DNA from: Pseudomonadota bacterium
GTDB taxonomy: Bacteria > Pseudomonadota > Gammaproteobacteria > Burkholderiales > Burkholderiaceae_C
DNA: 64,000 nt
Direction of reading: 5' to 3'
Assembly (NCBI GenBank): GCA_020161145.1
Contig: JAIUPQ010000004.1
Location: 186,001 to 250,000, forward strand
Shown here in pieces: positions 7,735 through 34,028 of this stretch; position 1 is the stretch's first letter; each line of letters opens with the position of its first letter. The notes beneath the pieces were generated by a model that was not told the DNA's origin, did no database searches, and saw only the letters and a program-made list of their open reading frames with translations. A program made the translations under genes and the position numbers.

Positions 7735-8364
7735 CTAGTTGAGGTCAAGCGCTGCGAAGGTGGCCGCCTGGCGGCGGGCTTGCGCGGCGTAGGTGAGGCG
7801 CTGCGCCCGCACGATGGTTTGCAAATCGGCAAGCGCGTCTTCAAACGAACCGTTGATTATCACATAGTCGAAGCGCGGTGCCTGTGCCACCTCCTGGCGC
7901 GCATTGGCCATGCGCTGGGCAATCACCGCTGGGGCATCCTCGCCCCGGCCGGTGAGGCGCCGCTGCAGCTCGGCCCAGCTGGGCGGCAGGATGAAGACCA
8001 GCACGGCGTGCGCAAAGATCCGTTTGATCTGCAGCGCGCCCTGGAAGTCGATCTCCAGCAGCACGTCTTCGCCCGCGCCCAGCCGCGCCGCAATGGCGGC
8101 GCGCGAGGTGCCATAGCCATTGCCATGCACCTGGGCCCACTCGATGAAGGCGCCCTGGGCCACCATGCGCTCGAACGTGGGCGTGTCCACGAAGTGGTAT
8201 TCGCGCCCGTCCACCTCTTGCCCGCGCGGCGCGCGCGTGGTGTGCGAGATCGACAGGTGCAACTGCCCGTCCTGCGCCAGCAACTGCTTGACCAGGCTGG
8301 ACTTGCCGGCCCCGCTGGGGGCGGCGACGACGAAAAGGCTGCCGGGGGTGGAGAGGGTATTCAT
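7735..8364 (-). CDS. gmk: Guanylate kinase
   Basis: 209 aa. It phosphorylates GMP to GDP with ATP. The P-loop APSGAGKSS is at residues 15-23, followed by the GMP-binding stretch [22 protein letters not shown] and [13 protein letters not shown]. Length and motifs are normal. In relatives yicC normally lies directly upstream; here about 15.7 kb of accessory DNA separates them, so gmk must be expressed from a promoter in or beyond the short stretch 8365-8433, in which no convincing promoter was seen. Confidence 0.95.
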
Positions 8365-8433
8365 TCAATGTACGGCGTCTGCTGGCGGATACCTGGCGGC
8401 AGGCCGGGTGAAGTCGGCAACGAGCTTGTCATG

Positions 8434-9630: not shown

Positions 9631-9712
9631 CTCTGGCTACAGACAGCGGAGAAATTTCCAGCGTCAGGCGCTCTTCGAGGAAGTGATTCGACAACTTGCC
9701 GCCTGACCTCAG

Positions 9713-10263
9713 TTGGAAGACGCGGCACGCAAAGCCGTCGAGTTACCTGCGACCGCGCCGCTGGTCGGGCGATTCGAGGCGGTTCGAGTGGCGCCGCCTG
9801 CCCTCGCACATCGCGTACAGGAGCGGCAAGCCTATTACCCGTCTGCCTTGGTGCAGCGCGACTACCTGATGCATGAGGCCAGCAACCAGAGTCTGGGTCT
9901 GGCAGGCGAGGAGTTCGTCGTGGACTACGAACGGTGGCGACCCATTCAACGGGGGTGTGAACACCTGGCGGCCAGAATCGAGCACACGTCAAAGGTGCGT
10001 GGCGACGGTGCGGGGTACGACGTCCTCTCGTTCGAAGAAGACGGTCGCGAGCGGTTCATCGAAGTCAAGACGACGGCCTATGCGAAAGAGACCCCTTTTT
10101 CATCAGTGACCGCGAACTTCGGTTCGCGAACTCGCATGAGCTGGCGTTTTGCTTGTATCGGGTCTTTGAGTTCAGACGGACGCCGCGAATGTTCGCGCTG
10201 AGGGGGCAACTGGATGGCCAATGTCGGCTGGACCCAACGACTTACATGGCCTCGTTCGCGTAG
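9713..10263 (+). pseudogene. DUF3883 (NO VEIN C-terminal-like) gene, frameshifted
   Basis: The first frame (TTG 9713) contains NQSLGLAGEEFVVDYE, RIEHTSKVRGDGAGYDVLSFEEDG and RFIEVKTTAYAKETPF, the core of DUF3883, a restriction-endonuclease-like fold found in defence proteins. After position about 10090 the frame turns to nonsense. The proper C-terminus (FISDRELRFANSHELAFCLYRVFEFRRTPRMFALRG, in part) continues in the next frame to TAG 10261-10263. One base missing from the C4T5 run near 10090-10099 explains this. The N-terminus is also probably incomplete: a related-looking frame just upstream (ALFEEVIRQLAA) is cut by TGA. It is convergent to the truncated AlbA gene. Confidence 0.75.
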
Positions 10264-10376
10264 GCCTGCAAGCCCGCGCAGGGCCAGGCTCTGCAAGTCG
10301 AATCGTCACGCGTTCACTGTTTTTTTGCGCCCAAGGTTGGGTGTATTCAGCAACACAGATCGGACGCCTTGAAACC

Positions 10377-10494
10377 CTATTCGATGTTCTGCACCTGCTC
10401 GCGCATCTGCTCGATCAGCACCTTCATGTCCACGCTGACGGCGGTCAGCTCCAGGGCGGCGGACTTGCTGCCCAGGGTGTTGGCCTCGCGGTGC
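10377..10494 (-). pseudogene. Detached 3' end of yicC (direct-repeat copy 1)
   Basis: The minus strand encodes the last 38 residues of YicC (HREANTLGSKSAALELTAVS... to QNIE, TAG). Positions 10381-10494 match 24056-24169 of the intact yicC at 111 of 114 bases. Upstream the match stops abruptly at 10494, where a cupin gene fragment begins. Its stop codon (TAG) and downstream sequence differ from those of the intact copy (TGA). It is therefore the old chromosomal 3' end, or a second allele, left at the far side of the inserted island. Confidence 0.9.
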
Positions 10495-10725
10495 GGCAAT
10501 GTGCACGGTTGCCTTTCCGCTGCGCACCACGAAGACCTCGTCGACCTCGACATCGGTGCTCACGCTGGGCGAAATCTCCCACAGACCGATGTCCGCACCG
10601 GCGACGCCATCCACTCGGCGCGGCCCGACACGTGCCAAGCCCGAGACGGTCGACTAGGCAGGCTGCATGCGCTCGTCCAGCGGGAGGTTCAAGGCGTCGA
10701 TGACGCGGTTGTGCGAAAGGGACAT
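10495..10725 (-). pseudogene. Cupin-domain gene, truncated and with an in-frame amber codon
   Basis: The frame starts at ATG 10725 (MSLSHNRVIDALNLPLDERMQPA), meets TAG at 10654-10656, and continues in the same frame as STVSGLARVGPRRVDGVAGADIGLWEISPSVS and TDVEVDEVFVVRSGKATV. The latter is a typical DUF861-type cupin core. The rest of the barrel is missing because the sequence joins the yicC fragment at 10494/10495. Such small cupins often accompany PuuB-like oxidoreductases and aldehyde dehydrogenases in amine catabolic clusters, exactly the two genes upstream here. Both the stop and the truncation make it non-functional. Confidence 0.75.
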
Positions 10726-10754
10726 ATTCGTTGCGGCGCGTGGCTGTGCGATGG

Positions 10755-12158
10755 TCAGGAGTCGAAGCCCAGGCCGAGCGCATCGGCGGTGCGCAGCAGC
10801 AATCCTCGCCTGCCCTGTCGATGATCGGCGCGGTCCAGCGCACGCCGCATCGTCTGCACGGTGGCGTAGGCAATGGGCTCGGGAGGGAAGGGGATCGGCA
10901 TCTCGCGCACCATGCGCAGTCTCGTGCGCTTGGTGTCCAGGCCCGCCAGGCGATCCAGCAGGACTTCGGCGGCGAAGCGGGTGGCGCCGACGCCCAGGCC
11001 AGTGAAGCCGGCGGCATACGCTACCCGGCCCCGCAAGGCTTGCGCGTAGAACGCGCAAAAGCGCGTGGACGTGTCGATGGCGCCAGCCCAGCGGTGCGAG
11101 AACCGCAGACCCTCGAGTTGCGGGAATGTGGTGAAGAAGTGGCTTGCCAGTCGCTGGAACGAGGCCGGCCGCTGCTCGTGCCCAGCATCGACCCGGCCGC
11201 CGTAGTGGTAGATCGCGTCGTAGCCGCCGAAGAGGATGCGCTGGTCGCGGGTGATGCGGTAGTAGTGAAACTGGTTGGCCATGTCGGTCAACCCCTGGCG
11301 GTTCGACCAGCCGATGGCCGCGAGCTGCGCAGCGCTCAGCGGCTCGGTCATGAGCACGTAGTCGTACACGGGTATGGTGTGCAGGCGCCAGCGCCGCAGC
11401 AGCGATGGGAAGGCGTTGGTCGCCAGCACCACTTGCTTCGCCCACACCTGTCCTTGCTCGCACGCGACGACGACATGACTGCGCTCATTGCGTATGCCAC
11501 TGGCAGCGGTGTGCTCGAAGAACTCGACGCCCAGTCTGGCCGCGGCCGCAGCCAGCCCGGTCGCCAGCTTGCCCGGATGCAGCATCGCGCAGCCCTCGCG
11601 GTCCCACGCTCCGGCCAGGAAGATGGGCGAGTTCACTTCGGCGCGCACGCTGCCCTGGTCGAGGAAGCCGGGCTCACCGCGGATCCAGTCGACCTGGTGG
11701 GGCTCTACGGCCACGGTGAGCACGCCGCTGCGTTCGTAGTCGCAGTCGACGTCGTAGCGCTGCAGCGTCCGCTCGATGGCATCCAGATTGGCCTGTCCCA
11801 TCGCGGCGAGTTGTTGCATCTCTTGCGGCCAGCGCCGCAGGCCGTTCGCCTCCCCGTGGGTCAGCGTCGCCTCGCAGAAGCCGCCGTTGCGTCCGGAGGC
11901 CGCCCAGCCGAGTTGCTGGGACTCGACCAGGACGACGCGCCGTTGCGGGTCGCGTTCCTTGGCGATCAGTGCGGCCCACAGACCGAGGAAGCCACCGCCG
12001 ACGACGGCGAGATCGGCCTGCACCTCGCTCAACAGGGCCGGGTGCTGGGGCTTGGAAGGCAGGTCGTCCAGCCAGAACGGGCGATTGACTGTGCCCGACA
12101 GCGCATGGGCCACGACGGCGGGCTGCGGGGGCTGGCGTTCGAAGATGGTGGTAGGCAT
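10755..12158 (-). CDS. FAD-dependent oxidoreductase (DAO family, PuuB-like)
   Basis: 467 aa. The FAD-binding Rossmann motif VVGGGFLGLWAA is at about residues 52-63, followed by VESQQLGWAASGRNGGF, the flavin loop of PuuB/glycine-oxidase-like enzymes, and a C-terminal GFTGLGVGATRFAAEVLLD FAD segment. PuuB-type enzymes oxidise an amine to an aldehyde with release of ammonia and H2O2. The aldehyde dehydrogenase encoded 20 bases upstream would oxidise the product. I chose ATG 12158, preceded by GAGG; a longer frame into the previous gene is a shadow. The substrate is unknown. Confidence 0.85.
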   Translation of the reverse strand: MPTTIFERQPPQPAVVAHALSGTVNRPFWLDDLPSKPQHPALLSEVQADLAVVGGGFLGLWAALIAKERDPQRRVVLVESQQLGWAASGRNGGFCEATLTHGEANGLRRWPQEMQQLAAMGQANLDAIERTLQRYDVDCDYERSGVLTVAVEPHQVDWIRGEPGFLDQGSVRAEVNSPIFLAGAWDREGCAMLHPGKLATGLAAAAARLGVEFFEHTAASGIRNERSHVVVACEQGQVWAKQVVLATNAFPSLLRRWRLHTIPVYDYVLMTEPLSAAQLAAIGWSNRQGLTDMANQFHYYRITRDQRILFGGYDAIYHYGGRVDAGHEQRPASFQRLASHFFTTFPQLEGLRFSHRWAGAIDTSTRFCAFYAQALRGRVAYAAGFTGLGVGATRFAAEVLLDRLAGLDTKRTRLRMVREMPIPFPPEPIAYATVQTMRRALDRADHRQGRRGLLLRTADALGLGFDS

Positions 12159-12178
12159 TGAACCTCGGCGGTGGCGGA

Positions 12179-13663
12179 TCAAGCCTGCGCGTACCAACCC
12201 ACCGGGCCGGGGTGCAGGTTGATGTTGACCTGCTTGACTTGCTGGTACTCCAGCAAGCCATTGACACCGAGGTCGCGGCCGTAGCCGCTCATCTTGTAGC
12301 CACCCCAAGGGGCTTCGTTGAACGTCGGGTTGTAGCAGTTGATCCAGGTGATACCGGCGCGCAATTCCTTCATCACGCGCAGTGCTCGGGCACCGTCACT
12401 GGTGAACACGCCGCCGGCCAAGCCGTAGCGGGTATCGTTGGCCATCGTGATTGCCTCCTGCTCGGTGCGGAAGGTTTGGATCGAGACCGCCGGGCCAAAC
12501 ACCTCCTCGCGCACGATTTCCATGTCGGGTGTGCAGCCGTCGATCACGGTGGGCTCGACGAAGTAGCCGCGCTCACAGCCGTCAGCCACATGACGCCGGC
12601 CGCCGCAGACCACGCGGGCGCCGGATGCCCGGGCGCGGTCGATGAAGCCCAGCACCTTGTCGAGTTGGGCCTGCGAGACGATGGCACCGATGTCCGGATT
12701 GGTCAGCCCTGGGCCGATCCGCATGCCGCGCGCGCGTTGCGCCAGTCGCTCGACGAAGCGATCTTTCAGACTCTCTTCGATGAGGATGCGCGAGCCAGCC
12801 GAGCACACCTGGCCCTGATTGAAGAACACGCCGATCATGGCCCACTCGACGGCGCCTTCGAAGTCGGCATCGGCAAAGATGATGTTGGGCGACTTGCCGC
12901 CGAGTTCGAGCCCGACCTTCTTCAGGTTTCCCACGGCCTGCGTCGCGATGACCTGGCCGGTGCGCGTGCTGCCGGTGAAGGTGATCATGTCGACCTGATC
13001 GCTGGCGGCCAGTTCCTGGCCTGCGGCGGGGCCCGTGCCCAGCACGAGGTTGGCGGTGCCGGGAGGCAGCCCCACCTTCTCGAAGATCTTGAAAAGCTCG
13101 ATGGCTGAAAGTGGCGTCAGCTCGCTGGGCTTGAGCACCACGCTGTTGCCGGCGGCCAACGCCGGGGCCAGCTTCCAGGTGGCCATCAGCAGCGGGTAGT
13201 TCCACGGTGTGATCAGGCCGCACACCCCCACGGGCTCGTGCATCGCGTAGGCGTGCATCTCACCAAAACCGTCGGGCACCTCGTACACGCCGCCCTGCGG
13301 CTTGCCGATGAGGCCCGCGTAGTACCGGAAGCAGGCCACCGCGTCGTCGACATCTGCCTGGGCTTCGCGCAGCGGCTTTCCGTTGTCCAGGCAGTCGACC
13401 TCGGCCAGACGCCCAGCATCGGCCTGAATGACATCGGCAACCTTGTACAGCAGCGCGGCGCGCTTTGCGCCGCTCATCCGGCGCCAGGTTCCTATCTCGT
13501 AAAACGCGCGTCGTGCTGCGGCGATGGCCAGTCGCGTGTCCTCGACGGTGCTGTCGGCCACCTGCGCCAGTACGCTGCCGTCGGCCGGATTGATCACGTT
13601 GCGTAAGGTCCCTGCCGTTGCAGGGCGCCAAGCGCCATCAATGAAGTTCATCGCTGGAGACAT
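12179..13663 (-). CDS. NAD(P)+-dependent aldehyde dehydrogenase (betaine-aldehyde DH-like)
   Basis: 494 aa class-1/2 aldehyde dehydrogenase. It shows ITPWNYPLLM, the cofactor site FTGSTRTGQ, the general base Glu253 in LELGGKSPN and the nucleophile Cys287 in NQGQVCSAGSR. C-terminal GGYKMSGYGRDLG is also typical. It oxidises an aldehyde to a carboxylic acid. ATG 13663 is preferred because GAGG lies nine bases ahead; an in-frame GTG three codons earlier is weaker. Together with the FAD oxidoreductase it forms an amine-to-acid oxidation pair in the island operon. Confidence 0.9.
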   Translation of the reverse strand: MSPAMNFIDGAWRPATAGTLRNVINPADGSVLAQVADSTVEDTRLAIAAARRAFYEIGTWRRMSGAKRAALLYKVADVIQADAGRLAEVDCLDNGKPLREAQADVDDAVACFRYYAGLIGKPQGGVYEVPDGFGEMHAYAMHEPVGVCGLITPWNYPLLMATWKLAPALAAGNSVVLKPSELTPLSAIELFKIFEKVGLPPGTANLVLGTGPAAGQELAASDQVDMITFTGSTRTGQVIATQAVGNLKKVGLELGGKSPNIIFADADFEGAVEWAMIGVFFNQGQVCSAGSRILIEESLKDRFVERLAQRARGMRIGPGLTNPDIGAIVSQAQLDKVLGFIDRARASGARVVCGGRRHVADGCERGYFVEPTVIDGCTPDMEIVREEVFGPAVSIQTFRTEQEAITMANDTRYGLAGGVFTSDGARALRVMKELRAGITWINCYNPTFNEAPWGGYKMSGYGRDLGVNGLLEYQQVKQVNINLHPGPVGWYAQA

Positions 13664-13694
13664 TTTGTGCACCTCAATCGTTGCGTCGCGGTGA

Positions 13695-14927
13695 TCACGC
13701 CGACACCTGGCCCAGACCGGGAGTCATGCCAGTGAGCTTTCGGTGAGCCCACGCGCACAGGAGCAGACTCACGCTCAGTGGCACGACAAACCCCGCCAGC
13801 ATGTGTTGCTGCCCAAAGCCCAAGGAGAGCAAAGCGGCTCCGCCTAGCGGCCCCAAGGCTTGCCCCAGGCCCTGTGCGGCAGGAACGAGTGCGGCAGCGC
13901 GCCCCGTGCGGTCGATCGCACCGAGCGATGTCTGCTGGAAGAGCGTGACCAGGGCCCAGGTCGTGCCGCCGAGTGTCACCCGAATCACGTAGTCGACAGA
14001 ATCCCGCAAAGGCACCACCCAAGCCAGCATGACCGCCGCGCACAGCGCCATGGCCAGGAGCAGCGGCGCCTGTTGCCCGAACTTCGTAGAGGCGCGCCAG
14101 GCGAAGAGGCAAGCGGTGGCGGCGACCAGGCTCGCGCTGGCGAAGGCCAGGCTCACTGTCACTGCTGGCATTCCTGCTTCATGGGCCACGCTCTCTGCAT
14201 AGGACCAACTCACTCCAGGTCCCGTCTGGAACAGCGTGACCGCAAACAGTGCCAGCAGACCGAGCTGGCGAAGCGGTGGTTCGCTGGAGCGATTCGGACC
14301 GGCTTTGCCGGCGTTCCGCTGCTCAGGGACGAGAACCGGTATCCAGGGCAGTGCCAAGACGGCAAGAGCAACCAGGGCAAGCACAGTTACGAGTGCGGCT
14401 TGAAATCCCCACTTCTCCGTGAGCAGCGGAATGCCGGCCAGTTCCAGTGCGCCGACGATGACGCCGGCCGCGTTCAGGATGCCGACGTTGCGCACTGGTG
14501 CAGACGAGCGCGTCAGTACGGCAACAGCGACGGAGTAGCTCATGCCGCATCCAAAGCCGCTCAGGGCTCTCAATAGACAAGCCGGTCCAATGGTCGTCAC
14601 GATGAATGTGGTCATCGTCGCCGCCAGCAACAGCGACACGCCCAGCGACGCCAAGATCCTGGTTGAGACGAAACGCATGGCCCAGGCGGTCGTGCAGGAT
14701 CCCAGCAACATGCCGGCCAGCTCAGCGGATCCCAGCCACCCGACCTCGGTCTCGCCGAAGCCGAGCGAACGCGCCATCGTCGCCAGAATGACCGGCAAGG
14801 CGTTGAAGACAGCGCCGGCTCCCACGCTGACCACCGTGCAGCCGAGCACGGTTCGAGCGTGGTCGAGATCGGCGATGCCGAGATGCGTGGATTCAGTGTT
14901 CATGTTGGCGGGTCGATCAAGCGGCAT
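13695..14927 (-). CDS. MFS transporter
   Basis: 410 aa with about twelve hydrophobic segments in two halves. A loop of about 25 polar residues (RNAGKAGPNRSSEPPLRQ) separates them, and GFGCGMSYSVAVAVLTRS is an MFS-like TM5 stretch. It is probably an inner-membrane importer or exporter of the compound handled by the island, or of a product. Starts at 14927 (MPLD) or 14903 (MNTES) are both possible and neither has a strong ribosome binding site; a purine-rich AGAGA precedes the first. It lies between the amidase and aldehyde dehydrogenase genes. Confidence 0.8.
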   Translation of the reverse strand: MPLDRPANMNTESTHLGIADLDHARTVLGCTVVSVGAGAVFNALPVILATMARSLGFGETEVGWLGSAELAGMLLGSCTTAWAMRFVSTRILASLGVSLLLAATMTTFIVTTIGPACLLRALSGFGCGMSYSVAVAVLTRSSAPVRNVGILNAAGVIVGALELAGIPLLTEKWGFQAALVTVLALVALAVLALPWIPVLVPEQRNAGKAGPNRSSEPPLRQLGLLALFAVTLFQTGPGVSWSYAESVAHEAGMPAVTVSLAFASASLVAATACLFAWRASTKFGQQAPLLLAMALCAAVMLAWVVPLRDSVDYVIRVTLGGTTWALVTLFQQTSLGAIDRTGRAAALVPAAQGLGQALGPLGGAALLSLGFGQQHMLAGFVVPLSVSLLLCAWAHRKLTGMTPGLGQVSA

Positions 14928-14984
14928 GCACGTTCTCTGCAGCTATGGGCAGCGTCTCGCGGCCCACGGGCTTCTCTGGCCCTG

Positions 14985-16442
14985 TCAGCAGGGAGGGCGA
15001 TGGCCCGCCCACGGGGATATGGCTTCAAACGCCGCAGCCGCTCGCAGCACGGCGAGGTCACGCCCGTGGCCGGCCGCGATTTGCAGGCCCACGGGGAGGC
15101 CATCGCGCGTGAAGCCGGCTGGTACCGTGATAGCGGGATAGCCCGCGTGGCTGATGGCCTCGGTGAAGCGCTGGTTCTCCATTGCGGGCTCGCGCGTCTT
15201 GATGCCGTCCAGTTCGAGCGGCCCACCGGCCGGCCCGGGGTGCTTGAAGGCGGCACAAGGCGTGGTCGGCCAAACGAGCAGGTCGTAGCGCTCGAAGACT
15301 TTGGCGAACGTGTTGTGGATTTGAGTCCGGACGTCTGTCTGCGTGCGGACGTAGGTCAGCAGGTCGATGCCTGCGCCACGATCGGCCAGCGTCCGCACCA
15401 CCGCAGGGATCTGCTGCGGATCGGCGTAAGGCAGGAGCTTGTCCTGGACGAGCGCGGCGACGGCCGGACCCCAGAAGTTCAAGAAGTACTCATACGGGTC
15501 GGGGAGTTCAAGGTCGATGCGATCTACCCGGGCGCCGAGATCACGCTCGAACCTCGAGACGGCGGCGGTGACGACCCGAGAGACCTCGGCCTCCACCGGG
15601 CCGCTGCGCAGGTCCGGGCAGAAGGCGATGCGCAGCCCGTGCACGCAGGCGTCAGCGATCCCGGCCAGGTAGTCGTCCGGCCGCTCCTGGATCGACACCG
15701 CATCGTAGGGGTCCGGTCCCGCCACCAGGCCGAGCATCCAGGCGCAGTCCTTGACGGTACGCGTGATCGGGCCGACCACGGTGACGGTGTCGTAGTTGCC
15801 CTGTTCGCCGCCCATCGGAATGCGGCCCGGTGATGGCTTGAGGCCGACGACGCCGCACAGGGCAGAAGGAACGCGGATCGAACCGCCACCGTCACTGCCA
15901 GTGGCCAGTGGTCCGAACCCGGCAGCCACTGCGGCGGCCGCGCCGCCGCTCGACCCGCCGGTCGTGCGGCTCACGTCCCATGGGTTGTTCGTAACGCCCG
16001 TCAACAGACTCTCGGTGACGCTGTGGAGCCCAAACTCCGGCGACGTCGTCTTGCCGAGCAAAATGGCGCCATGGGCCTTCAGGCGGGCCCAGATCGGTGC
16101 ATCCGATTCGGGCACGTGGTCGGCGAACACCTGCGATCCGTACGTCGTCCTGATGCCGGCGGTGTCCTCGAGGTCCTTCACCGTCACCGGCACGCCGTGC
16201 AACGCCGGCAGTCGGTCGGCCGGCGTGCGCATCAGCGCCGCCTCTGCGGCGCGGGCCTCCTCCATCGCTTCCTCTGCGCGCAGCGTCACGAAGGCGTTGA
16301 TTCGAGGTTCCAGTCGCTCGATTCGTTGGACAAAGGCGCTCATCAACTCGACCGGCGAGAGCTCGCGGCGGCGTATGGCGGCGGCCAGATCGACGGCGGC
16401 CGTGAAGCAGAGCGTGTCGGTCTCTTGGGAGGGTGGGTTCAT
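14985..16442 (-). CDS. Amidase (amidase-signature family)
   Basis: 485 aa. The Ser-cisSer-Lys triad is visible: Lys89 in VTVKDLEDTAG, Ser165 in TTGGSSGGAAAAVA and the nucleophile Ser188 in GSDGGGSIRVPS. The family hydrolyses carboxamides (GatA, indoleacetamide hydrolase and many others). GatB and GatC are absent here and the setting is catabolic, so tRNA amidation is unlikely. ATG 16442 (MNPPSQ) is chosen; a start four codons earlier is possible. In this operon it would release an acid and an amine, or ammonia, from an amide substrate. That is inference. Confidence 0.85.
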   Translation of the reverse strand: MNPPSQETDTLCFTAAVDLAAAIRRRELSPVELMSAFVQRIERLEPRINAFVTLRAEEAMEEARAAEAALMRTPADRLPALHGVPVTVKDLEDTAGIRTTYGSQVFADHVPESDAPIWARLKAHGAILLGKTTSPEFGLHSVTESLLTGVTNNPWDVSRTTGGSSGGAAAAVAAGFGPLATGSDGGGSIRVPSALCGVVGLKPSPGRIPMGGEQGNYDTVTVVGPITRTVKDCAWMLGLVAGPDPYDAVSIQERPDDYLAGIADACVHGLRIAFCPDLRSGPVEAEVSRVVTAAVSRFERDLGARVDRIDLELPDPYEYFLNFWGPAVAALVQDKLLPYADPQQIPAVVRTLADRGAGIDLLTYVRTQTDVRTQIHNTFAKVFERYDLLVWPTTPCAAFKHPGPAGGPLELDGIKTREPAMENQRFTEAISHAGYPAITVPAGFTRDGLPVGLQIAAGHGRDLAVLRAAAAFEAISPWAGHRPPC

Positions 16443-16493
16443 GGTGCTGCCCAAAGTGAACTGGGGGAAGTGGGGGGCGAGTGCCTGCCGCGT

Positions 16494-18143
16494 TCAGCGC
16501 CAGACGCGTTCGACGGCGTCGTAGGCTCCAGTACGCAGATCCTCGACGCCCTTGATCAGCCGATGTTTCGCGACCTTCTCGGAGGGCGTATACGGGAGGT
16601 CATCCACGTAGGCGATGTATCGAGGGATCTTGAACTTCGCCAGACGGGCCGCGCAGTGCGCGAGCACGGCTTCGGGCGGCAGTGCAGAGGCGTCCACACC
16701 CTCGTGCAGCATGAGATAGACCTTGACCTCTTCGTCGCGCGCGTCGTCGGGGACGGGCACGGCCGCGACGTCTTCGACCTGATCGAGCTCCCGCAAAACC
16801 TGCTCCACCTCGGTGGCAGAGATGTTCTCGCCACTGCGCTTGATCATGTCCTTGAGGCGCCCCAGGATGCGGTAGTAGCCGCGCTCGTCCTGCATGAACA
16901 CGTCGCCGGTTCGGAACCAGCCGTCGACGAAGGAGGCTGCGTTCGCCTGCGGGCGCTTGTAGTAGCCGTCGAAGATGCCGGCGCCGCGGATCCACAGCTC
17001 CCCAGGTTGGCCTCTGGGAACGTCTTGCCCGTCCTCGCCGACGATCCTCGCCTCGCGCCACGGACCGGGAAGGCCGCAGGTGCCCAGGGCGGCCTCGTCG
17101 GACACTTCGCTCGGAACGCTCAGCCCAAGGCCGATCTCGGTCATGCCGTACGCCTCGCTGAACCGGGCGCCGAAGCGCCGCTGACCTTCCTTCAGCATCT
17201 CCGCGCTGAAGTGATAGGCCAGGAACACCTTGACCTGGTGGTCCTTCTCAGCCGGGCTCTCCTGCAGCTTGAGCAGCGGATCGGGGAACCACGCCAGGTT
17301 GCTGCCACGTTCCTTGAGCCAGCCCATGAAGTGCCGCACGCTCATGCGCCGCGTGTAGTCGACATGCGCGCCGCCGTAGAGCCCGGCCAGCAGCATCCAC
17401 TGCGGGTCGATGTAGTGGAAGGGGTGGTCGGACAGGATGCGGCGAATCCCGAGCTGCTTCCAGTAGAGCATCGGGGTGCATCCGGCCTGGATCCAGAAGC
17501 GGTGGCTCTGCATGACGCCTTTGGGAAGGCCCGTCGTTCCGGACGTGTACTGGATGTTCAGCAGATCGTCGGCGCGAGGCCCTTCGGGCGGTACGAAGTC
17601 GTCGCTGCCTGCGCGGAGCAGTTCATGGAAGTTGTTGGGCCCGTCGGCCGCGTCCTCCGTGGCTCCCACGGCAATCAGCACGGGCTTGACCCTGTCCGCC
17701 CATGATGCGTCATCGAGGCGTTCCCGATACGCCGAGTCGATCACGAGAAACGAGACATCTGCATCCTCGACGAGAAACTGGAGTTCCCTCGCCGTGTAGC
17801 TGGTGATCACAGGCACCATCACCGCGCCCAGGGTGGCCAGGGCCAGCCAGGTCACGGGGTACTCGATGCGGTTGGGCAGCATCACGGCGACGTGTGTGCC
17901 GTGACGTACGCCCAAGCGCCACAGGCTGTCGGCCATTCGCCGCACGGAGCAGGCCAGCTCGGAGAAGGTGAGCTGCTTTCCGTCCTCGATGAAATGGATG
18001 GCCTCGGCGTCACCGAACCGCTGTTCTGCCCGCCACAGGAGCTCGGGGACGGTGGCTGGGAGTTCCGTCGATTCGACGGCGTGCCTTCCGGCACGATAGG
18101 CCGCGAACTGCTCGGCCAATGCGTTCTGGTCTGCGATGCTCAT
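16494..18143 (-). CDS. AMP-dependent acyl-CoA ligase
   Basis: 549 aa ANL-superfamily enzyme that activates a carboxylic acid to its CoA thioester through an acyl-AMP. The AMP-binding motif YTSGTTGLPKG spans about residues 199-209. SEAYGMTEIG, GWFRTGDVF, GRLKDMIKRSGENIS and the C-terminal catalytic Lys in YTPSEKVAKHRL are all present, so it should be active. ATG 18143 overlaps the stop of the upstream enoyl-CoA hydratase in ATGA. It resembles crotonobetaine/carnitine-CoA-ligase-like CaiC proteins in general layout, but the substrate cannot be named. Confidence 0.88.
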   Translation of the reverse strand: MSIADQNALAEQFAAYRAGRHAVESTELPATVPELLWRAEQRFGDAEAIHFIEDGKQLTFSELACSVRRMADSLWRLGVRHGTHVAVMLPNRIEYPVTWLALATLGAVMVPVITSYTARELQFLVEDADVSFLVIDSAYRERLDDASWADRVKPVLIAVGATEDAADGPNNFHELLRAGSDDFVPPEGPRADDLLNIQYTSGTTGLPKGVMQSHRFWIQAGCTPMLYWKQLGIRRILSDHPFHYIDPQWMLLAGLYGGAHVDYTRRMSVRHFMGWLKERGSNLAWFPDPLLKLQESPAEKDHQVKVFLAYHFSAEMLKEGQRRFGARFSEAYGMTEIGLGLSVPSEVSDEAALGTCGLPGPWREARIVGEDGQDVPRGQPGELWIRGAGIFDGYYKRPQANAASFVDGWFRTGDVFMQDERGYYRILGRLKDMIKRSGENISATEVEQVLRELDQVEDVAAVPVPDDARDEEVKVYLMLHEGVDASALPPEAVLAHCAARLAKFKIPRYIAYVDDLPYTPSEKVAKHRLIKGVEDLRTGAYDAVERVWR

Positions 18144-18835
18144 GGGTTCTGGGGGAAGCTGTCCCAAAGGTGTGAAAAGAGGGCGAGCGATTCACTGCGG
18201 CTCAACCCTCCTCGTGCCGCTGCAATCATCTCGGCCCGAAGGCCGGACTGGGGATGGGTGGCCATGGCCTCGGCCTCCGCCAGGGCGACTTCGAGGAGTT
18301 GCTCATCGTCGACAACCTCGTTCACCAGGCCGCAGGCGGCGGCCTGCTCCCCGCTCATTGGATCGCCGGTCAGCGCCAGCCGCATGGCCACGGTCGGTGG
18401 AATCTGCTGCGCCAGACGCGTCAGTGCGGCGGCCCCGCCGTACCCGTAGCGAATCTCGGGAAAGCCGAACCGCGCATCACGAGTCGCGAAGCGCACGTCG
18501 GTGAGCATCAGCAGGTAGACGAGCCCCTGCCCGACGCAGTGGCCGCGCACGGCGGCCACCACCGGCTTGGTGCGCGGCATCGTCATGACGAGCTCTTCCC
18601 AATCCGGCTCCTCGCCGAAATCGTCGTTGATCGTCTTGAGATCGTCCCCGGCGCTGAACGATGTGCCTGCCTGGCTGGTCAGCACGGCCACCTTCAAGCT
18701 GTCGTCGCGCCTGAACCGCAGCAGGTGCCGATACAGCTGCTCGTGCATCTCCCTCGTGAGGATGTTGAGTCTGCCGTTGCGCAAGCTGATGACAGCGGTT
18801 CCGCCTCGAGTTTCGAAGTCGATCATGGTTTGCAT
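18140..18835 (-). CDS. Enoyl-CoA hydratase/isomerase family protein
   Basis: 231 aa, short for a crotonase. The oxyanion-hole strands TSFSAGDDLKTI and AAVRGHCVGQGLVYLLMLTDVRFA are present, followed by FGFPEIRYGYGGAAALTRL. It is the first gene of the island's minus-strand operon and is preceded by a near-consensus promoter and two dyads. With the ligase it would process a CoA thioester by hydration, isomerisation or related chemistry. Start ATG 18835; an alternative ATG lies three codons in. Confidence 0.85.
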   Translation of the reverse strand: MQTMIDFETRGGTAVISLRNGRLNILTREMHEQLYRHLLRFRRDDSLKVAVLTSQAGTSFSAGDDLKTINDDFGEEPDWEELVMTMPRTKPVVAAVRGHCVGQGLVYLLMLTDVRFATRDARFGFPEIRYGYGGAAALTRLAQQIPPTVAMRLALTGDPMSGEQAAACGLVNEVVDDEQLLEVALAEAEAMATHPQSGLRAEMIAAARGGLSRSESLALFSHLWDSFPQNP

Positions 18836-18910
18836 GCAAAAGACAACATAGGTGTTTGGATATCCTGGCGTGTCGCGACTGAGATGGTCTCAGGGTTAGT
18901 CCGCATTTTG

Positions 18911-18956
18911 TCAACATGATAGTTGGGCAATCATTCATTGTCAACTGTTGTGTTGA
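18911..18956. promoter_or_regulatory. Two matching operator-like dyads in the divergent promoter
   Basis: TCAAC-N6-GTTGG (18911-18926) and TCAAC-N6-GTTGA (18941-18956) are two copies of the same inverted repeat, each preceded by TTG, with centres 30 bp apart on nearly the same helix face. The first encloses the -10 element of the minus-strand promoter and the second overlaps its -35. They are candidate binding sites for the TetR-family regulator encoded at 23253. Confidence 0.6.
18916..18944 (-). promoter_or_regulatory. Sigma70 promoter of the island catabolic operon
   Basis: On the minus strand TTGACA (18944-18939) and TATCAT (18921-18916) are separated by exactly 17 bases, close to the sigma70 consensus. 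Transcription would begin near 18909, giving a leader of about 74 nt before the hydratase ATG at 18835. The region is visibly richer in A and T than its surroundings. Confidence 0.75.
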
Positions 18957-19035
18957 TTTATCCGGGGCCGGATACGCCGGCTGACCATGACCAGCGACCT
19001 GTTCGCCGGTCTTCACTGCCGCGAAGGAGAACTAC

Positions 19036-21456
19036 TTGAAGCTGAAGCACCGTCACCCATCGTGTCGTCGCGACCCGGTCATGGGGGCTTTCCGCTGGAA
19101 GCTGGCGCCGCTGTCGCTGGCCACGTTGCTGCTACAGACGGCAGCCCTTGCGCAGCAGGCTGCGGGCGCGGAAGAGCCGAAGAAGGAGGATGCGCCTCAG
19201 GCCTCTGCGGAAGCCAAACCCGCCACGCCGGTGCTCCAGCAGGTGGTGATCACTTCGGAGAAGCGCTCGTCCACGGTGTTCAAGACGCCGCTCAGCGTGA
19301 CCGCCGTCACGGGTGACGAAATCGCCGATCGCGGCGCGAATTCGGTCAATGACCTGATTCGCGGTATGCCGGGCGTCGCCGTCAAGGGCGGAGGCCCCGG
19401 CAAGAGCGAGCTGGTCCTTCGAGGTCTGGCGTCCAGTGGGGGGGTCTCGCCTACGGTCGGCTTCTATCTGAACGAGATACCGGTGACCACACCGTCCCAG
19501 GCATCACTGGGGCACACGGGTGTTGACCCAGACCTCTACGATCTGGAGCGCGTCGAGGTGCTTCGTGGTCCCCAGGGAACGCTGTATGGGGCGAGCTCGC
19601 TTGGCGGGACCGTGCGTCTGATCACCACGCCACCCAGCCTGAGGAACTTCTTGGGGAGTGCTCAGCTGCAGGTGTTGACGACCGAGGGTGGCGGCTTCAG
19701 CACCGGCGCGAGCGGCATGTTGAACATGCCTCTTGAGAAGGACGTTGCGGCGTTGCGTGTGGTCGCAACCCGCAAGCACGACAGCGGTTGGATCGATCGG
19801 GTCGTGGTACCCCATTTCCCATTGCCCACCGTGCCGGATCCGGTGCTGGAGCTGTCAGGTACGGTGCGCGGAAATCCTGCCGGGCTGCCAGGTAACCGAG
19901 TGATCAAGGACGTGAACGCCACGGATTTGACCGGTGTGCGTGCCGAACTGCTGATCAAGCCCTCGAAATCGCTCTCGATCACGCCGATGGTCTTTCATCA
20001 GCAGATCAAGCAGGGCGGCGCCGACACGTACGACAGCGTTCCTGGGGGGCTTGCACACTACCAGCCGCTGGATGTGCCCGAGTCGTACAAGGACACTTTC
20101 ACGATCGCGAGTCTGACCGTGAATTGGGACATGGGTCCGGCAAGTCTGATGTCGGCAACGGCCTACAGCAACCGGAAGAGTCGCAAGGTGGAGGACGTCA
20201 GCGAAGTGCTGCAGAACAGATTCTCCCTCCCGGGGTTCGACACCGCCAGCGGCGGAATGGGGGCAGCAACCGCCTCCGAGGACAACCCGACGCGCCAGTT
20301 CACGCAGGAGGTGCGTGTCTCGTCCAAGGGTGATGGGCCCCTGAGCTGGCTGGTCGGGGGCTTTTACAGCCGGATCCGGTCGAGCGGAGATGCGGCGAGC
20401 GTGGTGCCGGGTTTGGCCGACTTCGCGGGGACTACCAATCTGTTCCATCAGAGCCTGAGCGACGCGTTGACGCAGAAGGCGCTCTTCGGCAGCGCCACGT
20501 ATCAGTTTTCGCCGGAGATCCGTTTGACCACAGGTCTTCGGCGCTTCAGCTCGAAGAGTGACTCCAAGTCCGTGAGCAGCGGTTTGTTCAGCGTCACGGA
20601 GTCGGATGCCGTTGAGGTCAGCACCAGCAACGCGAAGGCGAGCGGCTTCAACCCGATGGCCAACCTCTCGTACAGCCCGAGCAACAACCAGATGTTCTAC
20701 CTTCTGGCCGCAAAGGGGTTCCGGGATGGTGCCGCGCAGCGATCGGTTCCGACGACCGGCCGGAACGCAGCCTGCGCGGCCAACCTCGCGGATCTGGGAC
20801 TGACTGCCTCGCCGGTCCGATACGGCCCCGACACCGTGTGGAGCTACGAAGCGGGGAGCAAGAGTCGCCTTGCTGGCGGGGCGGTGCTGTTCAACTTGGC
20901 GGCTTACACACAGACGTGGAGGAAGGTCCAGCAAATTGTGGGCCTTGACTGCGGTTGGGGGTACACCGACAACTCCGGCGACGCGCGCGTGAGCGGTATG
21001 GAGTACGAGCTGGCGGCGCGGCTGGGCGGTGGATTCACCGTGCAGCACAGTTTGGGCTACACGCGTGCCCGCTTCACGGCCGACCATGCGCCCACTGGCA
21101 CGAAGAAGGGTGACCGCCTGTTGAATGTGCCGGAATGGACGTCCAGCCTTTCTCTCCAGTACGACCAGGAGATCAGTGAAGCGTACTCGTTCCACGGCCG
21201 GCTCGACGCCAGCTACACCGGGCCGTCGGACACTCAGGGCTTCACCAGGAAGCGCCTGCCGGGCTACACCACGCTGAACCTGAGGGCCGGTATCGATGCC
21301 GATGCCTGGAGTCTGAGCCTTTTCGTCCGCAACCTGACCAACCGTCGTGTGGCACTAGCCCTTGAGCCGGGACTGCTGGCCAACACGCCGGTCCTCGACC
21401 GTGTCACCAGCAATCGGCCTCGGACCGTGGGTGTCGAGTACTCGGCTCGGTTTTGA
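19036..21456 (+). CDS. TonB-dependent outer-membrane receptor
   Basis: 806 aa. A signal peptide (hydrophobic APLSLATLLLQTAALAQ) is followed by an alanine- and charge-rich linker. The plug domain has VVITSEKRSSTVFKTPLSVTAV in outline, RVEVLRGPQGTLYGASSLGGTVRLI as its core, and a 22-strand-type barrel that ends in the terminal Phe of YSARF. It imports a ligand across the outer membrane using TonB-ExbBD energy. TTG at 19036 is chosen because AAGGAGA lies seven bases ahead; ATG at 19081 is the alternative but lacks a good site. It is divergent from the catabolic operon and followed by a secreted-type hydrolase gene, so the ligand is probably an ester or amide compound rather than a siderophore. 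That is inference. Confidence 0.9.
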   Translation: MKLKHRHPSCRRDPVMGAFRWKLAPLSLATLLLQTAALAQQAAGAEEPKKEDAPQASAEAKPATPVLQQVVITSEKRSSTVFKTPLSVTAVTGDEIADRGANSVNDLIRGMPGVAVKGGGPGKSELVLRGLASSGGVSPTVGFYLNEIPVTTPSQASLGHTGVDPDLYDLERVEVLRGPQGTLYGASSLGGTVRLITTPPSLRNFLGSAQLQVLTTEGGGFSTGASGMLNMPLEKDVAALRVVATRKHDSGWIDRVVVPHFPLPTVPDPVLELSGTVRGNPAGLPGNRVIKDVNATDLTGVRAELLIKPSKSLSITPMVFHQQIKQGGADTYDSVPGGLAHYQPLDVPESYKDTFTIASLTVNWDMGPASLMSATAYSNRKSRKVEDVSEVLQNRFSLPGFDTASGGMGAATASEDNPTRQFTQEVRVSSKGDGPLSWLVGGFYSRIRSSGDAASVVPGLADFAGTTNLFHQSLSDALTQKALFGSATYQFSPEIRLTTGLRRFSSKSDSKSVSSGLFSVTESDAVEVSTSNAKASGFNPMANLSYSPSNNQMFYLLAAKGFRDGAAQRSVPTTGRNAACAANLADLGLTASPVRYGPDTVWSYEAGSKSRLAGGAVLFNLAAYTQTWRKVQQIVGLDCGWGYTDNSGDARVSGMEYELAARLGGGFTVQHSLGYTRARFTADHAPTGTKKGDRLLNVPEWTSSLSLQYDQEISEAYSFHGRLDASYTGPSDTQGFTRKRLPGYTTLNLRAGIDADAWSLSLFVRNLTNRRVALALEPGLLANTPVLDRVTSNRPRTVGVEYSARF

Positions 21457-21508
21457 GGGGCAACATCAATGTCCAAGGCGCTGCGCAAGCACCAGGGAGA
21501 GCAAGAGC

Positions 21509-23185
21509 ATGTTTGAACTCCTGCACGTTGCGGAGGCAGAGGAGCTGTCGGCCCGTGCCGAACCGTGTCATGTTCGCATGCGCGATGGTGTGAGGCTGGC
21601 GACCGACGTCTATTTGCCCGACCATCCCTCGCGTCATCCGGCCATCCTTGTGCGGACGCCGTATGACAAGTGCAGCCGGTACACGGCACTGAAGTTCCAG
21701 GCCGACTACTACACCGCACAGGGTTATGTTTTCGTGGTGCAGGACGTTCGTGGCAAGTTCCGCTCGGAGGGCGAAACGGTTCCGTATTACCACGACGTGG
21801 CCGACGCTTATGACACGATCGAGTGGATCGTCGCACAGCCTTGGTCGAACGGGAGGGTGGGCCTGACCGGTGACTCCTACTACGGATTCACCGCGTGGGC
21901 GGGTGTGGCATGCGGGCATGCGGCCGTCCGCGCAGCCATCCCGAAGGTGACTGGAGTCAACATGGGGGCGAGCCATGTCGCCTCCTGCTGGCGTCAGGAA
22001 GTGCCCAACCTTCTCGGGCTCAACGATCTGATCCAGATCTGGACCGATCGACGCGGGTATCTCGTGTCGCTCGACTACGCTGCGGGGCACCCGCTGGAAC
22101 TTGCCGAGATCGCTCGCTCGAAGCTCGGCGTCTCGTCAGGCGTCGAACACCTCAAGCGCTGGGCGACGGGCAACGGCGACTGGTTCTCGCCGTATGGTGC
22201 GAGACACCCCTACCACACCACCCACGTGCCGATTTTGCACTGGGTGAGTTGGTACGACCCGGGCCTGGCGCCTGCCGGGATGGCCGACTGGCGCGCGCTG
22301 CGCAGCAACCCGAGCATGCGTCACCTTCACTTCCTCCGCGCAGCGTCAGCCGATCATGGCGGCTTCCTGTTGGAAGATGTCGATGGTGGCGACTCTTTGA
22401 ACCCCTATCTCGACGACGCGGCAATGCACCGGAGGCTCGCGCGCGAAACGGCCGAGGAGATGGCCTTCTTCGATGTCCATCTGAAGGGGATCGCGCCGGT
22501 CCTGCCACAGGCGCGTGTGCGGTGGCATTTGGGGCACGCCGGGTGGCGCGAGTCACAGGATTGGGGCGAAGGCTCGCAGTGGCAGACGCAGACCTACTAC
22601 CTCGATCGGCGGGCCGGAGGTGCCGGCTCCCTGGCCTTGACAAGACCGGTCGGTACAGGGACGGCCGCGTGGGTTCACGATCCGGCGAATCCCGTCACGT
22701 CGACGAGTTCGATCGAAGAAGCGTGGTACTTCCTCGCGGCCTACCCCGACGAGCGCGAGCAGGCGAGCCGCGACGACGTTCTGACGTTCACCAGTGAAGC
22801 ACTGACGTCCCCTGCGGACGTCGCGGGCCAGCCGGTGGTGAACCTGGTCATGGAAACGACCGCAGCTGCAGGCCACTTGTTCGTCAAGTTGCAGGATGTC
22901 TTCCCGGACGGCACGACGCGCCAGGTGTCGCGAGGCCAGATGGTGTGCTCCGGCGGTCGCTCCGGTCAGGTCTCGCTGCGCCTGAACGATGTGGCCTACC
23001 GGTTTGGCGAAGGCCATCGGATTCAACTCCAAATGCAGTCCAGCGACTACCCGCACTTCCTGGTGCATCCCGGCACGAACGAGAATCCCTGGCTCGCCAA
23101 GACGCTCCTGCGTTCGGTGCAGCGCGTTGTGATCGGCGGTAGCGCGGCGGCGTCCTTGTCTCTGCCGATCTACGCGCCGCTCTGA
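21509..23185 (+). CDS. CocE/NonD family hydrolase (X-Pro dipeptidyl-peptidase S15-like)
   Basis: 558 aa alpha/beta hydrolase. It has VRMRDGVRLATDVYLP at the start, VQDVRGKFRSEGE, the nucleophile Ser123 in LTGDSYYGFTAW, a His-containing SADHGGFLLED segment, and a C-terminal jelly-roll domain (LRLNDVAYRFGEGHRIQLQM). Family members include cocaine esterase, nonactin hydrolase and glutaryl-7-ACA acylase, which split esters or amides. No signal peptide is seen. ATG 21509 follows GGGAGA; a longer in-frame start would overlap the receptor gene. It lies 52 bases after the receptor and is probably cotranscribed. It could perform the first cleavage of the imported compound. Confidence 0.85.
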   Translation: MFELLHVAEAEELSARAEPCHVRMRDGVRLATDVYLPDHPSRHPAILVRTPYDKCSRYTALKFQADYYTAQGYVFVVQDVRGKFRSEGETVPYYHDVADAYDTIEWIVAQPWSNGRVGLTGDSYYGFTAWAGVACGHAAVRAAIPKVTGVNMGASHVASCWRQEVPNLLGLNDLIQIWTDRRGYLVSLDYAAGHPLELAEIARSKLGVSSGVEHLKRWATGNGDWFSPYGARHPYHTTHVPILHWVSWYDPGLAPAGMADWRALRSNPSMRHLHFLRAASADHGGFLLEDVDGGDSLNPYLDDAAMHRRLARETAEEMAFFDVHLKGIAPVLPQARVRWHLGHAGWRESQDWGEGSQWQTQTYYLDRRAGGAGSLALTRPVGTGTAAWVHDPANPVTSTSSIEEAWYFLAAYPDEREQASRDDVLTFTSEALTSPADVAGQPVVNLVMETTAAAGHLFVKLQDVFPDGTTRQVSRGQMVCSGGRSGQVSLRLNDVAYRFGEGHRIQLQMQSSDYPHFLVHPGTNENPWLAKTLLRSVQRVVIGGSAAASLSLPIYAPL

Positions 23186-23206
23186 GAGCCGGCCACGGCG
23201 ACATTC

Positions 23207-23224
23207 CGGGGCACAATCGCCCCG
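23207..23224. promoter_or_regulatory. Perfect inverted repeat before the TetR gene
   Basis: CGGGGC-ACAATC-GCCCCG is a perfect 6-bp dyad with a 6-bp centre in the 67-bp gap between the hydrolase stop and the tetR start. It could be a weak terminator hairpin for the hydrolase gene or an operator. No T run follows. Confidence 0.4.
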
Positions 23225-23252
23225 CGTTCAGGTTGGGGAACAGCTTCGGGCT

Positions 23253-23855
23253 ATGGGCAGGAAGAACAAGTCAGCGGAAAAGCGTGAACAGATTGTTGCC
23301 GCGTTCTGTGACTGCGCGGTCGACCTGGGGATCGAGAAGGCCTCCATGGGTGAGGTGGCGGCACGGGTGGGCATCGATCGCAGCACGATGCACTACTACT
23401 TCAAGACGCGCGAGCAGTTGGTCATCGAGGCGGCAAAATACATCACTCGCTTCTACACCGAGCGCATTGCGGCCACCATGGCCACGCTCGATCCTCGGAA
23501 CAAGTCCCACGCTCTGGTCGAGTCCCTGTTCTCCGCTGCGGTGCACGATGAGCGCAAGTCCTCATTGCTCGACGAACTCGGCGCTCTCGGGAATCGCGAG
23601 CCCTTCTTCCGCGAGCAGGTGAAGTCGGTCTACTCGGGCATTGAAACCGAAGTGTCCCGCGTGCTTGACGAGACACTCCCGGCAGCCATCCCGCCGAAGG
23701 AACGCCGCCTGCTGGCGCAAGCCCTCATGCAGTTGTCCGAAGGGGTCACGGTGTTCGTGGCCCTGGACTTCAATCGGACTTGGCGTCTGGCCGCGCGGCA
23801 GGCGGGACTGCAACTGCTCGACAACCTATTGACGAAGTACGCGCCCGAGGGGTAA
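23253..23855 (+). CDS. TetR/AcrR-family transcriptional regulator
   Basis: 200 aa. The N-terminal helix-turn-helix domain is plain: REQIVAAFCDCAVDLGIEKASM, GEVAARVGIDRSTMHYYFKTREQLV. The C-terminal ligand domain is not assignable to a named subfamily. It is the only regulator in the island and lies downstream of the receptor and hydrolase, so it is the natural candidate to control the divergent promoter at 18.9 kb, probably as a repressor released by a pathway intermediate such as an acyl-CoA. That assignment is inference. Confidence 0.9.
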   Translation: MGRKNKSAEKREQIVAAFCDCAVDLGIEKASMGEVAARVGIDRSTMHYYFKTREQLVIEAAKYITRFYTERIAATMATLDPRNKSHALVESLFSAAVHDERKSSLLDELGALGNREPFFREQVKSVYSGIETEVSRVLDETLPAAIPPKERRLLAQALMQLSEGVTVFVALDFNRTWRLAARQAGLQLLDNLLTKYAPEG

Positions 23856-23903
23856 CAGGACGAGGGTTCGACAGGTTCGCGCTCCGGGACTGCTTCGGAA
23901 CAT

Positions 23904-23927
23904 GGCGGGTTCGTCTTCGAGCCCGCC
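23904..23927 (+). terminator. Stem-loop after the TetR gene
   Basis: GGCGGGTTCG-TCTT-CGAGCCCGCC folds as a ten-pair stem with one G-U pair, 49 bases after the tetR stop. It is followed by an A run rather than a T run, so it is a weak candidate terminator. Confidence 0.4.
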
Positions 23928-23990
23928 CAAAAAACCCGCCAGACCAGAAAGCTTGCGCTTGCCTGGGACGCTGTGCTGCGGCATGAATGA

Positions 23991-24007
23991 GATTTCCATT
24001 GGAAATC
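23991..24007. other. Perfect 17-bp palindrome near the island's right end
   Basis: GATTTCCATTGGAAATC has perfect 8-bp arms about a central T. It lies 49 bases outside the yicC stop, in DNA with no gene. It could be a protein-binding site or part of the island's end. Confidence 0.5.
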
Positions 24008-24025
24008 AACAGCTTGGGCGGTCGA

Positions 24026-24048
24026 TTCGGGGGCATGACACCCCCGAA
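24026..24048. terminator. Strong stem-loop just after yicC
   Basis: TTCGGGGG-CATGACA-CCCCCGAA is a perfect 8-bp stem with a 7-nt loop, four bases beyond the yicC stop. It probably ends yicC transcripts and insulates them from the island, although no T run is present. Confidence 0.5.
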
Positions 24049-24051
24049 GCG

Positions 24052-24960
24052 TCACTCAATGTTCTGCACCTGCTCGCGCATCTGCTCGATCAGCACCTTC
24101 ATGTCCACGCTGACGGCGGTCAGCTCCAGCGCGGCGGATTTGCTGCCCAGGGTGTTGGCCTCGCGGTGCAACTCCTGAATCAGGAAGTCCAGCCGCTTGC
24201 CCAACTCGCCTCCTTTGGTCAGCAGGTGGTCGATTTCGGCGAGGTGGGCTTCGAGGCGGGTCAACTCCTCGGCCACGTCGATGCGGATGGCGAAGGCGGC
24301 GGCCTCGGCCAGCGCGCGCTCGTGGGCGGCGTCGGCGTTCACGCCGCCGCTGCCGGCACTGGCCAGTGCCTCCTGCCAGCGCTCCAGAAAGCGCGCCTGC
24401 TGGCGCGCCACGGCGGCGGGCAGCAGGGGTTGGGCCTTGGTGGCCAGGGTGCGCAGCGCGGCCAGGCGCTCGCGCAGCATGGCGCTGAGCTTGTCGCCTT
24501 CGCGCGCGCGCGCCTCGCGCAGCGCGGCGATGGCCTGGGCGGCGGCGCGCTGGGCCAGGGCGTCGCGGGCGTCGTCGTCGGGCTGGGCGTCGGCCGTCGG
24601 TGCCGAGCGCGCCAGTTGCAGCACCTCGGCCACCGAGAGTGGGGGCGCGGCGGGCAGCGTGGCGGCAATGGCGGCCTGCACCTCGGCCAGTTGGGCCAGC
24701 CAGGCCGGCGGCGGGCTGACCAGCGAGCTGGCGTCGCCCTGAACCAGGGCCAACCGCAACTCGACCTTGCCGCGCTTGAGGCCGCCAGCCAGTTGCTCGC
24801 GCAGCAGCGGCTCCAGATGGCGCAATTCGTCCGGCAGGCGCAGCGACACATCCAGAAAGCGGCCATTGACGCTGCGCAGCTCGGCGGCCACACGCACGGC
24901 GGGTCTGTTTTCCAGGGCCAGCGCAGCGCTGGCATAACCGGTCATGCTGTAGACTGCCAT
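24052..24960 (-). CDS. yicC: YicC family endoribonuclease
   Basis: 302 aa. The N-terminus MAVYSMTGYASAAL and SVNGRFLDVSLRLPDEL is the conserved YicC_N signature, and C-terminal QELHREANTLGSKSAALELTA with VDMKVLIEQMREQVQNIE is the DUF1732 signature. YicC proteins are endoribonucleases acting on small RNAs. ATG 24960 (MAVYSMTG) is the family start; a slightly longer frame is not supported. In relatives gmk follows directly. Here an island begins right after the stop and a second copy of the last 114 bases lies 13.7 kb away. Confidence 0.93.
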   Translation of the reverse strand: MAVYSMTGYASAALALENRPAVRVAAELRSVNGRFLDVSLRLPDELRHLEPLLREQLAGGLKRGKVELRLALVQGDASSLVSPPPAWLAQLAEVQAAIAATLPAAPPLSVAEVLQLARSAPTADAQPDDDARDALAQRAAAQAIAALREARAREGDKLSAMLRERLAALRTLATKAQPLLPAAVARQQARFLERWQEALASAGSGGVNADAAHERALAEAAAFAIRIDVAEELTRLEAHLAEIDHLLTKGGELGKRLDFLIQELHREANTLGSKSAALELTAVSVDMKVLIEQMREQVQNIE

Positions 24961-24996
24961 CGCCTTTTTTTCCACCTTCCCAACGAGCCCGCCATT

Positions 24997-32972: not shown

Positions 32973-33006
32973 GCCATGTGGCAACAAGCGCAGCCTCAAC
33001 GGCCGC

Positions 33007-33363: not shown

Positions 33364-33483
33364 GTAGGCTTGCAGGACGCGAACATAAGGGGTGCATGGG
33401 TGCGCTGCCTTTCAGGCGTTCAGGAAGACTTGATCGGGCCGATGGGCTCGCGGCCGTCGCCGTCGACCTCGGTCGGCGCTGGC

Positions 33484-34017: not shown

Positions 34018-34028
34018 CGAAGGCTTCG

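Follow-up and report, generated by a model that had tools for sequence, protein, structure and literature searches.

A second yicC tail beside a catabolic island: probable accretion of decayed integrative elements at a gene-end attachment site

Introduction

How did foreign DNA come to lie between yicC and gmk in the genome studied here, and why is it bracketed by two copies of the yicC 3' end, one of which abuts a truncated gene? The original prediction, made on the 64-kb stretch of DNA analysed here (the window), described a 13.6-kb island, ascribed it to an integrative element that enters the gene's 3' end and restores it, and named loss of an integrase or transfer by homologous recombination as alternatives. 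Following up this prediction by comparison with related genomes, we arrived at a reading that we hold to be reasonably probable, namely that decayed integrative elements accreted at yicC and that the last step was a one-sided homologous recombination.

Results and discussion

The yicC-gmk interval of the window is not ancestral. In 9 of the 15 other genomes of the same genus the two genes lie at most 60 bp apart, in agreement with the predicted gene order of relatives, while the remaining six comprise three with a gap of 3.3-5.4 kb (G010, G014, G002), two with the genes on different contigs (G009, G015) and one without a match (G008). In the window, the gap extends from 8365 to 24051 and measures 15,687 bp. 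The foreign block first described is present (island A, Table 1), but the non-ancestral DNA is larger than the proposed 13.6 kb and includes 8383-10376 (block B), which is likewise missing from relatives with adjacent yicC and gmk. G+C contents are 65.2% in island A and 63.5% in block B versus 70.7% in both flanks, and GC3 is 0.75-0.84 in island A genes versus 0.85-0.92 in flanking genes. Island A is inserted directly after yicC, with the gene left whole. A search for the same island elsewhere, suggested together with the prediction, returned nothing from the 16 genomes of the genus among the matches listed, and neither a donor nor an empty-site strain was seen in these same-genus genomes (n = 16). 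A second region of lower G+C (55-63%) occupies 33000-39000 of the window, and in another family member, G028, ~40 kb separate gmk and yicC (C4 276139-316662).

Table 1 Features of the yicC-gmk interval and its edges (window coordinates).
Feature	Position	Strand	Remarks
gmk	7735..8364	-	ancestral downstream neighbour of yicC
Third att-like core	8360..8382	-	at gmk start codon; degenerate, 6/23 mismatches
Block B	8383..10376	.	G+C about 63%; putative remnant of a second island
HATPase_c_4 (RecG C-terminal type) gene	8434..9630	-	AlbA_2 domain: second half only
NOV_C fragment	9713..10201	+	candidate defence protein PDC-S36; profile positions 100-227 of 280 (128)
Second att-like core	10376..10398	-	5/23 mismatches
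Repeat, left copy	10381..10494	-	yicC codons 270-307, then TAG
Island A	10495..24051	.	13,557 bp; G+C 65% vs 71% in flanks
Cupin remnant	10495..10725	-	3' part missing, ends at yicC copy; in-frame stop after 23 residues
FAD-dependent (DAO) oxidoreductase	10755..12308	-	start codon uncertain
Aldehyde dehydrogenase	12179..13672	-	
MFS transporter	13695..14927	-	
Amidase	14985..16454	-	
AMP-binding acyl-CoA ligase family	16494..18167	-	
Enoyl-CoA hydratase/isomerase family	18140..18835	-	
TonB-dependent receptor	19036..21456	+	
CocE/NonD family hydrolase	21362..23185	+	607-aa frame, start codon uncertain; TIGR00976 above cut-off
TetR-type regulator	23253..23855	+	at expected integrase place; below NCBIfam cut-offs
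Spacer like yicC-integrase spacer of yicC-specific elements	23945..24048	-	75/106 aligned positions identical to G015
Att-like core, end of intact yicC	24051..24073	-	23-nt reference; same place as G285, G303 and G099 cores
Intact yicC	24052..24975	-	307 codons
Repeat, right copy	24056..24169	-	within intact yicC

The direct repeat that frames island A was recomputed from the window sequence with the same result as before: positions 10381-10494 and 24056-24169 run the same way and share 111 of their 114 bases, and no longer direct repeat was detected in 9000-26000. As had been described, the intact gene lies at the right, and the left copy consists of the last 38 yicC codons (residues 270-307) with a stop codon of its own, TAG as opposed to TGA in the intact gene. 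Over the 38 shared codons the copies differ in 4 bases, all of them synonymous, so that the left copy shows no amino-acid change. The right copy agrees with the yicC ends of 14 relatives at 86-104 of 114 bases and with the left copy at 110, so that none of these relatives is as close to either source genome as the two source genomes are to one another. Given the four synonymous differences in 38 codons and the stops in both, the copies seem to derive from yicC ends that once functioned in two related genomes. A tandem duplication of yicC was rejected, as the copies differ only synonymously and have different stops.

Detached yicC tails were then sought in a family sample of 399 genomes, 387 of them with a yicC match, and none was found in another genome by this search, to which tails of 25 bp are invisible. 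Two yicC matches occurred, besides G000, only in G302 and G375, both fragmented assemblies, and represent two full-length frames in one case and one gene broken up across contigs in the other. Long-tail insertion as a common event at yicC in this family was likewise discarded, being unseen across the 399 genomes.

In this bacterial family, the 3' end of yicC does serve as an attachment site. The tyrosine integrase of G015, which has the domains Arm-DNA-bind_3, Phage_int_M and Phage_integrase, starts 110 bp past yicC on the same strand. A search of the 399 family genomes with this protein gave 20 matches in 19 genomes (E ≤ 1e-60), 12 of which follow yicC immediately and in its orientation, with G015's own integrase additional to these; among the other eight, L143 sits at a contig start and seven are located elsewhere, with 34-37% identity. 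Two of the integrase copies are damaged, that of G405 being full of stops and that of G411 being in two pieces. In a class sample of 369 genomes, four matches were obtained (E ≤ 1e-70), two of them beside yicC. An integrase tree of 21 rows, from which the broken or partial L138, L142, L143 and L144 were excluded and which was rooted by midpoint only, contains a branch with support 100/99 that sets 8 rows apart from the other 13; all but one of these 13 sit beside yicC, ten carrying that label and the remaining two being L186 and L188. The two changes counted on this tree are no evidence against a single origin, since the yicC label had omitted L186 and L188. In addition to the integrase next to yicC, the G015 element (L013:1-10689) carries other tyrosine-recombinase genes and encodes a ParM-like actin homologue as well as a PD-(D/E)XK protein, and G099 harbours a very small complete yicC element of 5.7 kb (L178:1040-6720) with an integrase and a HipA-like protein (named by eye). 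In the window itself the reported lack of a visible integrase gene was borne out: its contig, C3, has no match to PF00589 (Phage_integrase), the six matches of the genome lying on C2, C5, C8 (three) and C10, and no G015-type integrase was matched in this genome at E ≤ 1e-60.

In seven genomes we looked for a further copy of the respective yicC end. Such a core was found exactly in G285 and G303 and with one mismatch in G099, enclosing 23.2, 20.4 and 5.7 kb, respectively. The canonical core repeat of these three elements measures ~25 bp, comprises the last yicC codons plus the stop and ends just past the stop, and in G285 and G099 the far core lies close upstream of gmk. In the stretches covered from G136, G365, G095 and G101 the far core was not found; G101 has a 21/24 core match upstream of gmk on another contig. 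Within the 64-kb window, only three core-like sites occur at up to 6 of 23 mismatches, namely both yicC ends and the gmk start, and shuffling of the 66 nt next to gmk gave a match as good as the one at the gmk start in 1 of 5000 trials. This third site and the second block, 8383-10376, had been missed by the original prediction. The core is found at both ends of island A, but inside the 114-bp repeat, which extends 94 bp deeper into yicC than the canonical core. Of the proposal that an integrative element entered the gene's 3' end, the site stands, with 12 of the 20 integrases and that of G015 located directly after yicC. That such elements leave 'exactly this picture' is not supported, the repeat being ~25 bp in the three for which both ends were found.

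No second core (≤6 mismatches) was found in G010, G014, G002, G020 and G024, five other genomes with a gapped yicC-gmk interval, which indicates that the gap is also filled by other routes. In the first three (L006, L007, L008) a tannase-like esterase and a MarR regulator lie between yicC and gmk, accompanied in two of these loci by a hybrid histidine kinase (names by eye from translations).

Was island A ever such an element? It looks like one minus its integrase, as 23945-24048 resembles a yicC-integrase spacer. The 185 nt past intact yicC share 71% identity with the spacer of G015 over 106 aligned positions. On a profile of 11 other spacers, which are not independent and include several near-identical ones, the window scored 14.9 bits and G015 88 bits, compared to 3.1 bits for the best of 14 controls and 4.6 bits for the best of 200 shuffles. 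After addition of G015 to the profile, the window reached 27.4 bits and the integrase-less G027 11.5 bits over the first 38 nt, so that some of the spacer signal may arise where there is no integrase; G027 may be a remnant too in view of its 6-mismatch core just upstream of gmk. In blastn searches at E < 0.1 the window spacer matched G015 alone, the 20 other integrase loci giving no match. For the right-junction DNA, 22 of the 399 family genomes including its own gave a match, the other 21 spanning just 19-37 bp and being taken as chance, and the downstream side of the left copy has a weak likeness to the element spacers (~2 bits). Island A presumably once had an integrase that has since been lost, and with the yicC-side spacer kept and the integrase gone it may be regarded as a remnant resembling a CIME (cis-mobilizable element).

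The named genes of island A are metabolic, transport or regulatory, and judged by their predicted products they would serve to take up and degrade an amine together with an ester or amide. Plasmids yielded only distant relatives of two cargo proteins, with 64 records for the acyl-CoA ligase (best 44.7% identity) and one for the CocE/NonD hydrolase (34.5%). Across the 31 loci compared for cargo shared with other yicC-gmk intervals, the proteins of A and B gave only weak paralogue matches (≤29%). The genes of block B (8434-10201, opposite strands) appear to be remnants of a defence-like region, and the block was presumably an integrative element in its own right. Considering the degenerate third core at the gmk start, the 15.7 kb are probably two stacked islands, A and B.

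The left junction does cut a cupin gene, as had been noted: the fragment, itself interrupted by a stop, ends exactly at the left yicC copy, with the joint at 10494/10495. Beyond this joint the cupins of seven relatives continue differently, suggesting that no more than 1-2 bp were shared there. The order DAO-cupin-ALDH (aldehyde dehydrogenase) is found in 11 of the 26 DAO loci listed, and the window has ALDH-DAO-cupin'. The trio is conserved in Aquitalea, Vogesella, Pelomonas and other loci (L026-L036). A clean integrase insertion does not give a tail that is 94 bp longer than the core and abuts a truncated cupin gene. With the long repeat, the cut cupin, the differing gene order and no other detached tails, the simplest reading is that the left copy is a displaced, once-functional yicC end.

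But how could such an end be displaced? We propose that the yicC-gmk junction is the attachment site of elements with a tyrosine integrase that recognises the last yicC codons, and that two such elements became stacked here: the decayed B next to gmk, and A, a catabolic island whose integrase is gone. The arrival of A at its present place would not have been a clean integrase reaction. Rather, a genome in which B followed yicC would most likely have received, by recombination, DNA from a close relative with A downstream of yicC; one end would have been joined via yicC homology and the other by end-joining of the cupin gene to yicC codon 269/270. Such one-sided joining would leave the last 114 bp of the resident yicC behind, displaced, as the left copy. 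In the mirror case, B with a yicC tail would join a genome carrying A and give the same product. Of the alternatives named at the outset, integrase loss is the better one for the origin of the island, considering the hotspot and the spacer likeness, and homologous recombination is favoured for the last step by the 94-bp excess and the cut cupin. The repeat, the hotspot and the cut cupin are observed, whereas the route of this last step is inferred.

The same arrangement, in which yicC is whole, the cupin gene of A is truncated and 114 bp of yicC lie displaced, could also have come from aberrant excision followed by Campbell-type insertion, which we consider unlikely. Here, a donor circle closed between the cupin interior and yicC codon 269/270, and thus bearing the 114-bp tail, would enter the yicC of the recipient by a single crossover in the tail. 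RecA could carry this out, or else an integrase supplied in trans and acting on the core, which does sit inside the tail. This course requires two rare events and a circular intermediate, of which no sign was seen; by sequence it is inseparable from one-sided recombination of linear DNA.

Somewhat less likely still is a plain site-specific integration, in which the element itself brought a 38-codon yicC tail, the crossover fell anywhere in the 114 bp and the integrase was lost later. Long replaced gene ends occur elsewhere, as in the case of e14 in icd. Integrases of this family do use the 3' end of yicC, which, according to the accessible text of three papers, is a known target in gammaproteobacteria (PMC8409611, PMC8978831, PMC5704250). 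However, the repeat is ~25 bp in all three elements for which both ends were found, the other genomes of the 399-genome sample contain no detached tail copy, and the left copy abuts a cut gene. A local duplication of the yicC end in this genome or a contig mis-join at the 114-bp repeat is very improbable. The genome is indeed a draft of 13 contigs, but differing stops and four differences in 38 codons, all synonymous, are unlike a recent copy or a read-level artefact, and A and B are both below the flanks in G+C.

Several described systems come close to the favoured reading, accretion of decayed elements with a one-sided last step. Judging from the accessible text of the respective reports, the yicC-specific IMEs of gammaproteobacteria, MGIVflInd1, IEEcoMOD1 and GISpuPO1/GI21, have the yicC 3' end as target and the restored gene in common with the window, whereas a tyrosine integrase beside yicC is theirs alone, and among the genes seen in the window island none is for an integrase, an excisionase or transfer; the attachment sites of GI21 measure 9 bp (PMC8409611, PMC8978831). 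The yicC elements of G285, G303, G099 and G015 resemble island A in place, core and spacer, most strongly in the case of G015, but have integrases and other cargo, and three of them a 25-bp repeat. As far as the accessible text of PMC5704250 goes, accretion of integrase-less CIMEs at gene ends has been described, and the window resembles such a tandem in that an island with no integrase or transfer genes among those named lies between att-like sites, apparently stacked with a decayed element at a conserved gene's 3' end. In contrast, the inner repeat of the window is 114 bp long and adjoins a cut gene, for which reason accretion here was probably not by a site-specific reaction. Recombination that is homologous on one side and otherwise illegitimate is known from transformable bacteria (PMC3240628, accessible parts), and in the accessible parts of PMC5361080 homology-facilitated illegitimate recombination was proposed for displaced immunity genes at V. 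cholerae T6SS loci. That case would share with ours a homology anchor on one side, an illegitimate joint on the other and an old 3' piece shifted downstream, but in the window the displaced piece belongs to a core gene whose end serves as an attachment site. The kind of element is therefore already known, and the long displaced tail is the unusual part.

Our results point towards a yicC-specific integrase group in Burkholderiaceae-type genomes, which was not described in the text seen of the papers on gammaproteobacterial yicC elements listed from the open PMC library. Seen from static sequence, an attachment site can retain an island whose integrase has been lost, and can even gain such an island by stacking; as a diagnostic of such events we offer a repeated gene tail that far exceeds the canonical core in length. 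In the window, the 114-bp repeats should let RecA delete island A and leave yicC whole. More tentatively, we suggest that attachment sites may collect islands even after the integrase is gone, as integrase-free islands pass from one related strain to another by one-sided homologous recombination via the shared target gene, with stacking and long displaced tails (114 bp here) as scars. If true, such long repeats would give integrase-free islands a RecA-dependent exit that keeps the gene whole.
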